Positions 8,322-44,049 of a stretch of 44,049 nucleotides of DNA are shown here, in pieces. Position 1 is the first letter of the stretch; each line of letters begins with the position of its first letter. Both the position numbers and the translations under genes were made by a program. The notes beneath the pieces were generated by a model. It did no database searches. It was not told the origin of the DNA and saw only the letters and a program-made list of their open reading frames with translations. Source of the stretch: a virus; IMG/VR virus record IMGVR_UViG_3300020473_002212, positions 1 to 44,049 of that record. The stretch is one strand, 5' to 3'.

Positions 8322-8345
8322 ACCGGCGCCCAAACGGACGCCGGC
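8322..8345 (-). terminator. Rho-independent terminator for the 63-aa gene
   Basis: Read leftward, a GC-rich stem CCGGCG-y-CC with loop of four (GTTT) and the matching arm is followed by TCTTTTTG. It lies between the converging stop codons of the lipoprotein at 7634 and the small gene at 8353. The T-run is on the leftward side only. Confidence 0.7.
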
Positions 8346-8544: not shown

Positions 8545-8834
8545 TAACTCAATCCCTAGTCTAGTGAGCGCTTATCCGGATAATTAACCAGGGGGCCAGT
8601 CCTGGCTTGCTCGGTTTCGATGAATGCGCAGGACTATAGTCCCACGTAAGTTATCGTCATCTACTTTTTTACACGGTTAATTTTCGATGACGGCAACACT
8701 ATGAAACCATATTTTCAGATTGGCGCTACTGATTGGGATTAAAGCGTTTTACTATTGGCACTAGCACATTTTTAAAATCTGGCTACTGATTGCGAAGCTA
8801 TTTACTGGCAAGCGGTCGAGCGTTTTCAATAAAA
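8545..8834. other. Gene-free stretch with two 12-bp palindromes
   Basis: No convincing gene. It contains TTATCCGGATAA (8572-8583) and GGACTATAGTCC (8631-8642), both perfect 12-bp palindromes, and a short imperfect inverted repeat around 8590-8605. A leftward promoter can be drawn with -35 ATGACG (8655-8660), 16-bp spacer and -10 TATAGT (8633-8638), the latter lying inside the second palindrome, as in an operator-controlled promoter for the 63-aa gene. An 11-bp direct repeat GCTACTGATTG occurs at 8725-8735 and 8782-8792. Confidence 0.35.
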
Positions 8835-9152
8835 TTACACTGGCTCGAATATTGCGCGTTGCAACTGGTGAATGAGGAAGTGAAAACCGATGACCTGGGG
8901 CCAGTCATGGTTATTGAAGTGATGCTCGCAGATTTTGCATATATCGGCAAAGTAATTGACCTGTTCATCGCGCGATATAGATAGGAAGTGGGTAAGAGAC
9001 TTTTGCTGTCGTTGGAAGACTTCTTCAGCTGAATAGATCGCCGCAATTACCGATGCCTGCTCAGCATCGGGCAGGGCGTTTATCTGCTTGCGAATGTCGG
9101 CAAAGTCTATGAGTTCCTTGTATGCCTGTTCGCTCAGTTCCTTGAGCTTCAT
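8835..9152 (-). CDS. Hypothetical helical protein (105 aa), third cistron of the YejK-like operon
   Basis: An all-helical soluble protein: KLKELSEQAYKELIDFADIR, then ADICKICEHHFNNHDWPQVIG with two cysteines and two histidines close together (CKICEHH), which could hold a metal. GAAGGT precedes the ATG, which begins about 10 nt after the stop of the membrane-protein gene, so it is co-transcribed with the two genes upstream. Its base composition is closer to the phage average than theirs. No family recognised; it may belong to the accessory system or be an older phage gene downstream of it. Confidence 0.6.
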   Translation of the reverse strand: MKLKELSEQAYKELIDFADIRKQINALPDAEQASVIAAIYSAEEVFQRQQKSLTHFLSISRDEQVNYFADICKICEHHFNNHDWPQVIGFHFLIHQLQRAIFEPV

Positions 9153-9161
9153 AACGACCTT

Positions 9162-10295
9162 CTAAAATGTCCCAAATATAATAGCTGCCAAAATATACAA
9201 AATTGTCACACAACAAATAATTGCGCCAACTCTAGAAACCTCTGAAAGGCTTCTTTTCTTTATACTGCAGACCTGTTGTATTGAGTCTTCTATTATTTCC
9301 AGTAGAGGGTGGTCTGTATTACTGGTTTCCTCTGATAATCTCCGGCGATATACTTGAAGACTTTTGACGCTAGAGGATGTTGAAGTTTTTATTGCATCTC
9401 TTTTGCTTTTAAATGACCTCCATAACAATAGGCTGGCTAATATAAAGCCAAATATCAGCGCTAAAGTCATCTTTTTTTCCCCTGTTCGTGCAATTGATGA
9501 CAAAACTACCACAACAGGCACTGCAAAAGACTGGAGTTGAAAGCTATGCACCTGCTCGGTACATTTCTCGATGATTTTTCTCAATTCATCGTCAACTCGC
9601 TCGTTAAACTCTTTGAAGGAGAAAGCTCTTAAGTAAACCTCGTAATCTTGGCGATAAGCTTTGTCTAGCTCTTCTGCGTTGCAAAGAAGCCATGCAAGGT
9701 CTTTGTTGCCAATATCTTTGAAACACTCGACTAATGATTTTTTTAAAGTCGCCTTTCGCTCGTTACTGTGAGCATCCTTTTCATTAAGTATGTCGATTAA
9801 GACATGCGGAGAAGATATCGATTTTAAGAGGTCTTCTATTTCATCGTCTTTAAAGCTAATTACATCGTTTAAATTGAAAACTTCAGAGCCATCAACTGAT
9901 GACCAAGGGTTTACGACTAGATATTCCTCACAAGTCTCGCTCCCAAATTTTTTGTCGCAAAGAATTGAAAACAACTTTTTCCATTCAGTTATACATTTAT
10001 GGAGCCATGAGAAGTCGATAACTTTATTTTTGGAGATAATGAATAGCTCATTGTGCTCTGGACTTTCGGAGGAAATGATATAGTCAAGAGAGTGATTAAA
10101 GTCTGGATAAATGAAAGGCAACTCATCAATTATAAAAGAAACCTGATCGTTGCCATATTTTTCAGTTTCGTACTCGTCATAGACAGTTGAGCCAACAAAT
10201 GACTCTATTCGCCTAGCTGTCTTTATATCAACTAAAACGTAGTTTTGATCTCTATCTACTGAAGAGTTTTCGAAAATTTCTTTTAATTCTGCCAC
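9162..10295 (-). CDS. Membrane protein with large cytoplasmic N-domain, partner of the YejK-like protein
   Basis: A 377-aa protein. Residues 1-250 are soluble, acidic and mixed alpha/beta with no family that I recognise; three hydrophobic segments follow at about 256-270 (SFAVPVVVVLSSIA), 276-292 (MTLALIFGFILASLLLW) and 357-375 (GAIICCVTILYILAAIIF), the first two forming a hairpin. Start is GTG at 10295, overlapping the previous stop (TAGTG) with no strong SD, so translation probably depends on coupling with the YejK-like gene. AT-rich relative to the phage core. A soluble sensor or DNA-associated protein coupled to a membrane protein is a common design of abortive-infection systems; that role here is inference. 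Confidence 0.7.
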   Translation of the reverse strand: MAELKEIFENSSVDRDQNYVLVDIKTARRIESFVGSTVYDEYETEKYGNDQVSFIIDELPFIYPDFNHSLDYIISSESPEHNELFIISKNKVIDFSWLHKCITEWKKLFSILCDKKFGSETCEEYLVVNPWSSVDGSEVFNLNDVISFKDDEIEDLLKSISSPHVLIDILNEKDAHSNERKATLKKSLVECFKDIGNKDLAWLLCNAEELDKAYRQDYEVYLRAFSFKEFNERVDDELRKIIEKCTEQVHSFQLQSFAVPVVVVLSSIARTGEKKMTLALIFGFILASLLLWRSFKSKRDAIKTSTSSSVKSLQVYRRRLSEETSNTDHPLLEIIEDSIQQVCSIKKRSLSEVSRVGAIICCVTILYILAAIIFGTF

Positions 10296-11389
10296 TATTC
10301 AATCGCTTTTAATATACTGGCTATCGTATTAGAATCCGTTATCTGAGTTTTTATTGTTAGGTTGTTTGACTGTTTATCAAATGTCGCAGAGTCTATTTTT
10401 CCTGCAGATTTCTTCGCAAAAAAAGATGGCCTGATTTTTAATTCGCCAACAGGGCTGCTAACAGGAACAAAGTCTAGTTTATCTCTGAATGATTTGGTAC
10501 CGAAGAAAGTTTCGTTTACTTTATAATTGCCATGAACTATATGATCCTCAAAAGATGAGCGAGTAAAGTTCTTCGCTGTTTTTGGAGACATTGAGTTATA
10601 TACTCTGTGACTAACGTCTTCTACGGTTGTTGCAATGCCTTCCTTGTCATGTTTTTCAAGCAGATCGGAAAGGTCTGACTTCACCTTATTTTTTTCCGAT
10701 GGTTTTATTTTGTGCGTTTGCAAAAAGTCGTCTAAACCTGAAAAAAGTTCGTTTACGCTCTCTGTATTCTGTATCAGTCCTTCAGCGTCTAGAAAGTCAA
10801 TGAAATATTTTGAACTTCCATTAATGAAGCTGACGTCAAAATTAGAGTTTGCCGATAGACTTAATTTAAAGTCATTCACATCTATCATGGCTGCATGCAA
10901 AATGTCGTCAAAATCAATTATTTCAACGCTACTCGGTTTGTTTTGTTGAATGCGTAAAACGGTTTTATCCTTTAAAAGGATAATCAACAACCTTTCAGTT
11001 GCCGAGAAACTACCCGTCGACTTATCATATTGGTCACATTTGTAGTTAAGAAATGTGAGCATTAATCGATCATAACTTCTTGATTTGCTCAACTGCAAAC
11101 CGGCGTGAGTAGCAATCTTCTCAGCCATTGCTTTAAAATCTAACGAACCTTTTAAGTGTTTATTAAGGAAGTCGGCAAAGGAATTAGTTTTAAAAGGATT
11201 AGGGATTTCAGCATGATTTTTTGCTCTATTACCAACTTTTAAGTGAGCCTCTTTGGCGAATTGGGTTGTACTATTTGATGAAGACCAAAGGTTTCCTGAG
11301 TCGTGGCTCCACTTTTTTGTATTTTTATCTTGTGTATAAGTGATGCTATATCCTGCTTTATATACAGCACTGTTGCTACTTTTTGGCAC
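10295..11389 (-). CDS. YejK/NdpA-like nucleoid-associated protein
   Basis: A 364-aa protein resembling the 37-kDa nucleoid-associated family (YejK/NdpA). Matching order of blocks: DRLMLTFLNYKCDQYD and LLIILLKDKTVLRI (barrel core), IIDFDDILHAAMIDVNDFKL (family 'H-y-L-D-I-N-H-A-D-I-x-A-x-I-D-L'), FINGSSKYFIDFLDAEG (family 'FLKGRxGRKVxDFFmDFLGaxEG'), then FRDKLDFVPVSSPVGELKI and FDKQSNNLTIKT at the C-terminus. Family members bind DNA and co-purify with the nucleoid. It begins with GTG and a strong SD (GGGAGG, 6 nt). It is AT-rich, coupled by 1 nt to the membrane-protein gene, and divergent from the AbiC-like gene. Family call moderate to good; role in the phage unknown. Confidence 0.7.
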   Translation of the reverse strand: MPKSSNSAVYKAGYSITYTQDKNTKKWSHDSGNLWSSSNSTTQFAKEAHLKVGNRAKNHAEIPNPFKTNSFADFLNKHLKGSLDFKAMAEKIATHAGLQLSKSRSYDRLMLTFLNYKCDQYDKSTGSFSATERLLIILLKDKTVLRIQQNKPSSVEIIDFDDILHAAMIDVNDFKLSLSANSNFDVSFINGSSKYFIDFLDAEGLIQNTESVNELFSGLDDFLQTHKIKPSEKNKVKSDLSDLLEKHDKEGIATTVEDVSHRVYNSMSPKTAKNFTRSSFEDHIVHGNYKVNETFFGTKSFRDKLDFVPVSSPVGELKIRPSFFAKKSAGKIDSATFDKQSNNLTIKTQITDSNTIASILKAIE

Positions 11390-11533
11390 AACGCCTCCCT
11401 GGCTTATTATTTTTAGTCCTCAAATTTACCGCGTTCCGGATCCCGTGACAAGCGCGGTGGTGGATCATATTATCGAAAGTTCACAGAACACTATGATAGA
11501 TGTCATTAAACATTTGATTGAAAAGGGGAAGTT

Positions 11534-12271
11534 ATGGGGAAGGGAAAGCAGGATAAAGCTAGCAATGAAAAGCATCCAGAAGAAAAGGTTTTTTGGATAG
11601 TGGGTTTGGGAATGTTAACCATGGCTATAGTGCCTGGGGTTTTCGCGTTCTTTTTCCATAGTCTAAACTGGGGAGGCCCCAAGGGCTGGGCGACGTTTGC
11701 CACTTACTTTTCAGGTATAGCGACGCCGGTAATTGCATTTTGTTCAGCACTTTTGTTTTACCGCTCAATAGTCGTTCAACGGGATGAGTTCAAAAAAACT
11801 CGCGAGGAGATGGAGTTTGCAAGTGAGCTTCAGCTTGATTCTGAACTCTCAAGAATCAAGTTAACACGACAAACTCAATTAGAGAGAGCGTTGCCTAATG
11901 CCAGAGCTCTGCAAAAGTCCCTGTTTAACAATCTAGCTGCTTATGAACTGGAGTCTTATAAATACGTTAGAGATAAAGAGATTCAAAACCGTTTTGAATC
12001 ATACGTATCACGCAGTCTCAGCGTAGTTGTAATGATCACCGAATATTTAAGTTGCGGTGGAGATATTTACTTAGTCCTGAATTACATTGATGAAATCACG
12101 TCAGAGAATAAACAACTCAGGGCTTTAATTTCTGAAAGCCCGTTATCCGAATCTTCAGAAGCTAACAACTATTTTATAGCCTTAGCCGAATTGTGGCATC
12201 GAAGAAATAAGGAATTAAAAAAATACGCCAGCAAAATCGAAGACATAATCACAAAGCCCCAGTCCGCATAA
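11534..12271 (+). CDS. Two-pass membrane protein, putative abortive-infection (AbiC-like) type
   Basis: A 245-aa protein with a basic N-terminus, TM1 at ~19-42 (VFWIVGLGMLTMAIVPGVFA), TM2 at ~56-78 (FSGIATPVIAFCSALLFYRS), then VVQRDEFKKTREEMEFASEL and a long helical cytoplasmic domain. The pattern 'W-x-T-F-x-x-Y-F-x-G-I-x-x-P-x-x-x-F-x-x-x-L-L' followed by 'QRxEl-x-x-TReE' is that of the putative phage abortive-infection membrane family (putAbiC-like). SD GGGGAAG precedes the ATG. The gene lies beside the repressor and overlaps its 3' end by 23 nt, convergent. A prophage-borne exclusion function is likely by family and location, not proven. Confidence 0.65.
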   Translation: MGKGKQDKASNEKHPEEKVFWIVGLGMLTMAIVPGVFAFFFHSLNWGGPKGWATFATYFSGIATPVIAFCSALLFYRSIVVQRDEFKKTREEMEFASELQLDSELSRIKLTRQTQLERALPNARALQKSLFNNLAAYELESYKYVRDKEIQNRFESYVSRSLSVVVMITEYLSCGGDIYLVLNYIDEITSENKQLRALISESPLSESSEANNYFIALAELWHRRNKELKKYASKIEDIITKPQSA

Positions 12272-12941
12272 CTACACGGCCAGCAATCGTGTATTGCGCC
12301 CATTCTCGATCGCTAATCGTGGCCGCTTTATGCTGGCCACGAGAGTCAGTCCACATTAGCTTGCCCAAAGCATCTTCCTCAACTCGACAAATAACTAGCT
12401 TGGTTTTGTCTTTGACTAAGGCATAAATGCGTTGCTTGTCGCGCTCGATATCCGTAACACTGGTATCCACTAACAACATATCGCCTTTGGCAATCGATGG
12501 CTCCATCGATGTATCAGGCATGATTAGAGCGCCCAGGCTTCGTGGCTGGAGGCTATACAGCTGCAGCAACTCTTTGCGTACCGGGAACAGCTTTTTATAG
12601 TTCGGCTCGCCCAAATAGTTGTCCTGGGACACTTGGTCTAGGCGGGGGACCATGATGTCGCGGTATAGCTCGCTCGATAAGTCCACATCGTTTGATAGCT
12701 CCCACGCATTCGCCGGCGGGATGTACTCAGGACCGGTATTCTTATCACCATGCTCGAGCCAGTCGATGGATACGTTCAGGGCATTGGCTAGTTTACCTAA
12801 GTTTTGAACACGCGGCGTAGTTAACCCTTGTTCCCACATCGAAATATTGCCATGCGTTACCCCAATCGCTTTTGCGAGGGTTATTTGGGTATGCCCGGAT
12901 TCCCGTCTTGCGCTTCGTATTCGATCACCGATCTTAGACAT
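12249..12941 (-). CDS. CI-like repressor with degenerate S24 peptidase domain
   Basis: Maintains lysogeny by binding operators in the adjacent control region. N-terminal HTH (residues ~4-62: IGDRIRSARRESGHTQITLA, GVTHGNISMWEQGLTTP) is followed by a linker and an S24/LexA-like C-domain: MPDTSMEPSIAKGDMLLVD with Ser145 in the usual place. The catalytic lysine, expected in a 'V-K-R-L'-like strand about 37-43 residues later, is replaced: the strand reads LVICRVE, with Cys185 in the Lys position. No Ala-Gly or Cys-Gly bond is present in the expected hinge (~100-115). So RecA-stimulated self-cleavage seems unlikely. Divergent from the rightward early genes. Confidence 0.9.
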   Translation of the reverse strand: MSKIGDRIRSARRESGHTQITLAKAIGVTHGNISMWEQGLTTPRVQNLGKLANALNVSIDWLEHGDKNTGPEYIPPANAWELSNDVDLSSELYRDIMVPRLDQVSQDNYLGEPNYKKLFPVRKELLQLYSLQPRSLGALIMPDTSMEPSIAKGDMLLVDTSVTDIERDKQRIYALVKDKTKLVICRVEEDALGKLMWTDSRGQHKAATISDREWAQYTIAGRVVMRTGAL

Positions 12942-42996: not shown

Positions 42997-44049
42997 ATGA
43001 AAATAAAAACAACACTCACAATGCTTACGCTCGCATTAGCGGGAACGTTCACTACAGCGGCCGCGAATGCCGAAACGCACCAACAAACAGACCGTGAAAA
43101 ACCCATTGCACTGGTTATTCACGGTGGCGCAGGTACCATTACCCGAGCTAATTTGAGCGAGGAACAAGAGGCAGCGTACCACGCGAAACTCGAACAGGCA
43201 TTACAGGCGGGATACGCGGTACTTGAGCAAGGCGGCAGTAGCACTGATGCGGTGATTAGTGCGATTCAAGTGATGGAGGATTCCCCCTTATTTAATGCGG
43301 GCAAAGGCGCGGTGTATACCTGGGATGGCGAGCATGAACTTGATGCGTCTATTATGGACGGCGCAACGAGCAATGCAGGTGCTGTTGCTGGGGTTAAGAC
43401 GGTAAAAAGCCCGATTGAACTGGCGCGCACCATCATGGATAAGTCGGTGCATGTGATGCTCAGTGGCGATGGGGCGGCACAATTTGCTCAGCAGCAAGGT
43501 TTAGCCCAGGTTGATAATAGTTACTTTGATACTGACCATCGTTATCAGCAACTCATTGATGCAAAAGAAACGATTCGTAAAAGTGAGCAGCCCGAACAAC
43601 AAGCTTGGCGCTATCTCGATCTCGATTATAAATACGGCACCGTGGGCGCTGTTGCACTGGATCAGTCGGGTAACCTCAGTGCTGGTACATCAACCGGCGG
43701 GATGACCGCTAAGCGTTATGGTAGAATAGGGGATTCACCGATTATTGGCGCAGGAACTTGGGCAGACAATAGTAGTTGTGGTGTCTCCGCAACCGGTCAT
43801 GGCGAGTACTTTATTCGTTACCATGTAGCAGCGGATATCTGTGCACGAGTTAAGTACCAGAATCAAACGGTAGAAGAAGCGGGTGATGCAGTGATTCATG
43901 GTGTGTTAGAGCAAGCGGGTGGCACCGGAGGTGTCATTATCATGGATGCGCAAGGGCATATTGCTACACCGTTTAACACTGAAGGTATGTACCGTGGTTA
44001 TATTCGCAATGGCAACGTTCATACTGCGATTTACAAAGATGAGGATTAA
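42997..44049 (+). CDS. Isoaspartyl peptidase / L-asparaginase (Ntn hydrolase), exported
   Basis: A 350-aa chromosomal enzyme of the plant-type asparaginase family (peptidase T2). A signal peptide (MKIKTTLTMLTLALAGTFTT, cleavage after AAANA, ~25) sends it to the periplasm. Family motifs: ALVIHGGAGTI (37-47), SSTDAV, FNAGKGAVYTWDGEHELDAS, LDLDYKYG followed by T215, the residue freed by autocleavage at G214-T215 (YGTVGAVALD), and SAGTSTGGMTAKRYGRIGDS, which binds substrate. It hydrolyses beta-aspartyl dipeptides and L-asparagine. The gene is complete and ends at the window border. Confidence 0.93.
   Translation: MKIKTTLTMLTLALAGTFTTAAANAETHQQTDREKPIALVIHGGAGTITRANLSEEQEAAYHAKLEQALQAGYAVLEQGGSSTDAVISAIQVMEDSPLFNAGKGAVYTWDGEHELDASIMDGATSNAGAVAGVKTVKSPIELARTIMDKSVHVMLSGDGAAQFAQQQGLAQVDNSYFDTDHRYQQLIDAKETIRKSEQPEQQAWRYLDLDYKYGTVGAVALDQSGNLSAGTSTGGMTAKRYGRIGDSPIIGAGTWADNSSCGVSATGHGEYFIRYHVAADICARVKYQNQTVEEAGDAVIHGVLEQAGGTGGVIIMDAQGHIATPFNTEGMYRGYIRNGNVHTAIYKDED

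Follow-up and report, generated by a model that had tools for sequence, protein, structure and literature searches.

We found that two adjoining genes on the repressor side of a virus record very probably form an anti-phage defense module, judging from their sequence relationships. The best explanation overall, which we hold with middling confidence, is that they are a prophage-borne two-gene defense module and a divergent sister of DS-1. A role in defense is well supported by homology to DS-1A and DS-1B, by conserved gene order, by correlated trees of the two proteins, and by location in a slot with swapped content. The window that we analyzed is the whole of IMG/VR record IMGVR_UViG_3300020473_002212 (44,049 bases), which carries an integrase, RecT, a YqaJ-type nuclease, a CI-like repressor and a Mu-type portal. 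Its relevant features are as follows:

10295–11389 (−): P1, a YejK/NdpA-family (NA37), DS-1A-like protein of 364 aa without a zinc ribbon (PF04245, NF053868, PDB 9be2 profile)
9162–10295 (−): P2, a DS-1B-like membrane protein of 377 aa (NF053869, hydropathy, family alignment)
8835–9152 (−): P3, 105 aa, starting 9 bases past P2 (ORF)
8637–11392 (no strand): swap cassette, absent from sister phage L080 (blastn, L080 ORFs, PADLOC)
11423–11451 (−): promoter-like site 5' of P1, TTGTCA-17-TAAATT (consensus match only)
8322–8345 (−): terminator-like hairpin of 10 pairs, 3' of the leftward genes
12249–12941 (−): CI-like repressor (HTH_3 + Peptidase_S24, by Pfam), near the cassette and given for context only

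The two reading frames lie exactly where the first-pass annotation had placed them, sharing 1 nt on the same strand; both begin with GTG, and AGGGAGGCGTTGTG upstream of P1 is a good ribosome-binding site. The operon had also been described correctly as AT-rich: the P1–P2 region has 36.5% GC, compared to 48.0% for the record, which is the minimum among 837 windows of equal size. Promoter-like sites numbered 17 in the region, compared to 10.9 expected. P3 is conserved (72%) only in viral contig L004, which is the nearest relative of the window (66% identity in P1 and 78% in P2), and is absent from other DS-1-type loci. Thus, its membership in the cassette is uncertain, although it lies inside the swapped segment. 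One gene separates the pair from the CI-like repressor. The divergent neighbor at 11534–12271 (+) had been called AbiC-like; a Pfam search gave no match at E ≤ 1, so that this label rests only on the layout of an N-terminal membrane segment and a coiled coil, and we attribute a weak PADLOC match to JetB (E 0.004) to chance. The neighbor has a conserved membrane N-terminus and a variable C-terminal half, is possibly a second exclusion gene, and has counterparts at L004:3959–4759 (−) and L080:7052–8020 (+). The record ends on the right with an Asparaginase_2-family gene (42997–44049, +; E 2.4e-120), possibly host DNA or cargo.

Profile searches confirmed the proposed YejK/NdpA identity of P1, which matched PF04245 (NA37) over residues 68–347 (E 7.5e-16; 58.9 bits, above the cut-off of 24.6); the only other Pfam match at E ≤ 1 was a weak one to LPD7, below the LPD7 cut-off. 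By model NF001557, P1 does not qualify as an orthologue of chromosomal YejK (57.1 bits, under the cut-off of 341). P1 did match NF053868 (DS1_1_antiphage) across profile positions 41–368 of 369 (109.9 bits, E 1.3e-31) while missing the cut-off of 330, and it matched none of the known defense families in PADLOC. YejK itself is a double-stranded-DNA-binding protein with an effect on topoisomerase IV. An alignment showed that the N-terminal zinc ribbon (CxxC..CxxC) of the E. coli and Klebsiella DS-1A proteins is missing from P1 of both the window and L004; it was not evident in the remaining aligned P1 homologues either, and is thus probably not essential in the wider family. AlphaFold2 models of P1 and P2 were of too low quality to be informative (pLDDT 45 and 56), and CorA-like Foldseek matches of the P1 model (TM-score about 0.13) were disregarded.

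P2 matched the companion model NF053869 (DS1_2_antiphage) over profile positions 31–337 of 337 (79.4 bits, E 2.7e-22), again missing the cut-off (315). The first-pass description of a three-pass protein stands as regards the soluble N-terminal part and the C-terminal hydrophobic segments. The number of passes, however, is a prediction: hydropathy gave segments at 251–269, 277–295 and 356–374, or two to three predicted transmembrane segments, as the first of these is weak and falls below threshold in several homologues. The protein is laid out as a fast-evolving N-terminal part (about residues 1–160, predicted cytosolic), followed by a conserved helical core with DxHxxERK and FS motifs. Conservation in the family is strongest in the helical region leading into the first hydrophobic segment, where Pro260 is invariant (15/15). 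The lysine/arginine-rich stretch of 60 residues at 296–355 would be cytosolic if the N-terminus is cytosolic. We found no relative of P2 among solved structures (the best match, a 14-3-3 protein at E 0.056, was taken as chance); a weak PADLOC match to Cas5f (E 0.026) was likewise considered chance, and all Foldseek matches of P2 were disregarded.

The models matched by P1 and P2 describe DS-1, DefensePredictor system 1 (Science 2026), one of 42 validated systems (PMC13092281). Transcription units were tested in that study by cloning on a low-copy plasmid in E. coli MG1655; E. coli DS-1 conferred anti-phage protection when cloned, and the YejK nucleoid-associated domain is on the list of those newly implicated in defense (PMC13092281). 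We found no mechanistic experiment on DS-1 in the main text of PMC13092281. The first-pass annotation had proposed a novel pair acting in defense or exclusion, one member associated with DNA and the other with the membrane. What upholds the functional part of that proposal is the homology to a validated system, together with the recurrence of the pair, the defense neighbors, and the swap with a candidate defense pair. The description of the pair as undescribed is incorrect, since it is distantly homologous to DS-1 (PMC13092281; NCBIfam NF053868/NF053869). In the E. coli and Klebsiella copies, the first gene has a score of 451 bits (NF053868) and the second has scores of 375 and 370 bits (NF053869). 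In contrast, the scores of the window pair are 110 bits (cut-off 330) and 79 bits (cut-off 315), and its sequence identity to validated DS-1 is about 20%; thus, we consider it a homologue of DS-1 but not an equivalog. A near-identity search located DS-1 proper in 106 of 5426 complete E. coli genomes. In two chromosomal copies, an E. coli plasmid and a Klebsiella plasmid, it is oriented against the late genes, with holin/lysis genes on one side and the Q antiterminator on the other.

The pairing of P1 with P2 recurs, which had been proposed as a check on the defense reading. We found P1 followed by P2 in all 15 paired loci, with intergenic distances of −20 to +36 nt, on plasmids, prophages and phages of alpha- and gammaproteobacteria; NF053869 matched all 15 P2 members and NF053868 matched 14 of the 15 P1 members. 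The distant pairs include two contigs of a faecal phage collection, as well as plasmids of Acinetobacter, Methylobacter, Methylobacterium, Sphingomonas, Pseudomonas, Pseudoalteromonas and Xanthomonas. Moreover, an NA37 gene is directly upstream, on the same strand, of every full-length P2 examined, contig ends excepted. Thus, the identical gene order indicates that the pairing is not due to chance. Three P2 fragments of 208–307 aa on Pseudomonas and Cupriavidus plasmids (L071:5869–6792, L075:5821–6684 and L072:4526–5152) have no NA37 gene nearby. Solo NdpA genes without P2 occur in F116-like Pseudomonas phages, on Vibrio plasmids and on the E. coli chromosome; those of Pseudomonas phages that lack a membrane partner include L057:4908–5963, L058:4908–5915 and L059:1708–2730. 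A tblastn search of the phage collection with P1 and P2 gave no match, and scans of genome contigs with alignments A1 and E. coli-type A7 found nothing, a result whose meaning is limited by the short peptide patterns used.

The trees of the two proteins agree with a shared history. Patristic distances of P1 and P2 were correlated (r 0.87 for 15 pairs; 0.82 for 13 pairs, with near-duplicates left out), to an extent reached by none of 5000 permutations. Clades common to both trees are the window with L004, E. coli with Klebsiella, these four together, and three plasmid groups. The four-member clade is supported at 98/96 for P1 and 95/90 for P2; it unites long branches, and a sister relationship of the window clade to DS-1 is for that reason likely rather than proven. 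The paired P1 proteins separate from solo YejK/NdpA proteins, including E. coli YejK, with weak support (66/89).

The two halves of P2 have evolved at different rates. Among the E. coli, Klebsiella and L025 copies, dN was 0.083–0.118 in the first ~173 residues, compared to 0.035–0.044 in the rest, and every part of the protein is under purifying selection. In E. coli/Klebsiella-type copies, amino-acid-changing substitutions accumulated 2.2–2.7 times faster in the N-terminal half than in the membrane half, while synonymous rates were similar; a recognition domain attached to a fixed effector would be expected to show this pattern. Between the window and L004, identity was 57.5% in the N-terminal half and 93.5% in the C-terminal half, and the membrane half had a dN of 0.042 compared to a dS of 0.97, indicating strong purifying selection. 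Synonymous differences were also lower in the C-terminal half of P2 (0.55, compared to 0.77–0.82), which makes a recombination breakpoint within P2 likely. Given such a breakpoint, P1 and the N-terminal half of P2 are likely to have diverged together in these two viruses, and this joint divergence suggests that P1 works with the N-terminal half of P2.

The location of the pair is informative when compared to sister phage L080, which has ~80% nucleotide identity to the window over much of the shared region. In blastn alignments the similarity ends at window position 8636 and restarts at 11393, and a tblastn search found no match to P1, P2 or P3 in L080. The L080 slot holds two genes in the same orientation. 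Their products, of 342 aa and of 178 aa (the latter having four hydrophobic segments), matched the PADLOC candidate defense families PDC-M18A (E 1.2e-51) and PDC-M18B (E 1.3e-23). P1 and P2 have no profile similarity to PDC-M18A/B, and we reject homology of the two pairs. Since PDC-M18A/B replaces the window cassette, we infer that this phage lineage keeps interchangeable candidate defense cassettes beside its repressor. The PDC-M18A/B genes (L080:5464–7051, −) have a spacing of hydrophobic segments much like that of RexB, a Rex-like layout with no detectable homology; no mention of PDC-M18 was found in the literature searched. Adjoining the L080 repressor is a 308-aa ORF (L080:8211–9137, −) with N-terminal hydrophobic segments and no convincing Pfam or PADLOC match, which has no counterpart at that place in the window or L004.

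Some homologous pairs also adjoin defense genes. The Methylobacter pair adjoins GajA and GajB of Gabija (E 1.9e-230 and 2.2e-234), one Acinetobacter pair is near a QatA homologue of Qat (E 3e-266), one Pseudomonas pair is beside PDC-S06 (E 8.9e-292), and one P. putida pair has a NACHT protein in its vicinity. These neighbors support a role in defense but give no measure of enrichment, as ten chosen proteins were examined without a control set.

We considered how such a module might act. A mechanism in which a DNA-bound sensor triggers a membrane effector has, in our estimate, about an even chance of being correct. Specifically, P1, as a YejK-type DNA-binding protein, would detect incoming or replicating phage DNA, or DNA topology, and would then engage the cytosolic N-terminal part of P2; the helical/transmembrane module of P2 would in turn disturb the inner membrane and halt growth before phage release. 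This logic, argued by analogy, would resemble that of lambda RexAB without detectable homology; in RexAB-type systems a DNA-binding sensor triggers a membrane effector (PMC12894663). Homology of either protein to RexA or RexB was rejected (hhalign probability 0.1 for P1 and P2), although the lambda proteins were used as single sequences and a distant link could exist. Alternatively, the pair could act in the manner of Kiwa, in which a KwaA tetramer and KwaB dimers form a membrane complex that binds injected phage DNA without cleavage (PMC12904381): P2 would anchor the complex or sense injection, and P1, as the effector, would coat injected phage DNA at the membrane and block replication and transcription, such that the cell survives. 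We regard this as possible but doubtful. The pairing of a DNA-binding with a membrane component is common to Kiwa (PMC12904381), the binding of double-stranded DNA and the effect on topoisomerase IV known for YejK would fit a coating protein, and the helical and transmembrane region is the most conserved part of P2. However, P1 matches NA37 (and LPD7 weakly, below cut-off) in Pfam and nothing in PADLOC; Kiwa models in PADLOC were matched neither by P1 and P2 (E ≤ 1) nor by the P2 family (E ≤ 0.01); and the large, fast-evolving cytosolic half of P2 would be needless in a pure anchor. Although both kinds of logic fit the data here, we prefer the RexAB-like template because a variable cytosolic half joined to a conserved membrane module is what would be expected of a receptor for a sensor.

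Two further explanations dispense with defense altogether or in this host. The pair might serve prophage or plasmid maintenance or regulation, for instance by tethering the DNA of the element to the membrane or by counteracting H-NS-type silencing, in keeping with the relief of MvaT repression by NdpA2 on ICE PAPI-1 (PMC9927451), with the solo NdpA genes of Pseudomonas phages and Vibrio plasmids, and with the many plasmid-borne P1–P2 pairs. We consider this improbable: the characterized homologue DS-1 protects against phage, the sister phage has another candidate defense pair in place of the cassette, and solo and paired NdpA proteins fall on opposite sides of a branch, although its support (66/89) is not decisive. 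The pair might instead be an inert passenger, with intact genes that do not work as defense in this host. In several E. coli DS-1 copies (L007, L017, L019, L029 and L063), the YejK-type or the membrane gene has a split reading frame or is interrupted by IS1, which suggests that E. coli copies decay frequently. Since both frames of the window are intact and the membrane half of P2 is under strong purifying selection relative to L004, we think it highly improbable that the window pair is inert.

More speculatively, DS-1 might be one tip of a broad and deeply diverged class of immune systems on mobile elements, in which a YejK-fold sensor of invading DNA, possibly of its topology, activates a membrane effector whose hydrophobic helix contains a proline and is conserved; the window would then represent a zinc-ribbon-free branch, with a third gene that regulates the system or protects against it. 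The relationship of the window pair to DS-1 matters because it links the YejK/NdpA nucleoid proteins, which are widespread but little understood, with immunity on many mobile elements, and extends the newly reported DS-1 to a distant branch without the zinc ribbon. Moreover, natural variants (the fast N-terminal half and conserved membrane half of P2, and the PDC-M18 slot) make the mechanism testable.

Compared to known systems, the window pair is closest to DS-1: both are prophage-borne and have a YejK-family gene followed by a gene for a transmembrane protein on the same strand, and the DS-1 models cover most of the length of P1 and P2. In contrast, the DS-1 genes are separated by a 2-nt gap while the window genes overlap by 1 nt, DS-1 lies between Q and holin while the window pair lies beside the repressor, the window cassette has an additional small third gene, and the N-terminal zinc ribbon of E. 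coli DS-1A is lacking in P1. The family of P1 aligns by profile over the full length of housekeeping YejK/NdpA (PF04245; a profile of 15 relatives against solved E. coli YejK 9be2, E 2.5e-67), but YejK stands alone on the chromosome, whereas P1 is tied to P2 on mobile elements. RexAB (lambda; RexABpp) is likewise a DNA-binding and membrane pair near a prophage CI repressor, and in lambda rexAB similarly adjoins cI; RexB has four hydrophobic segments in a hydropathy scan, while P2 has a large soluble half and two to three transmembrane segments. Kiwa also has two components, one DNA-binding and one membrane-embedded, with different gene content, and PDC-M18A/B is a two-gene cassette with one membrane protein in the identical slot. 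This kind of system has been known, as DS-1, since 2026; what is new is a distant, zinc-ribbon-free branch that scores under the equivalog cut-offs and occurs in phages that have a slot for candidate defense cassettes.
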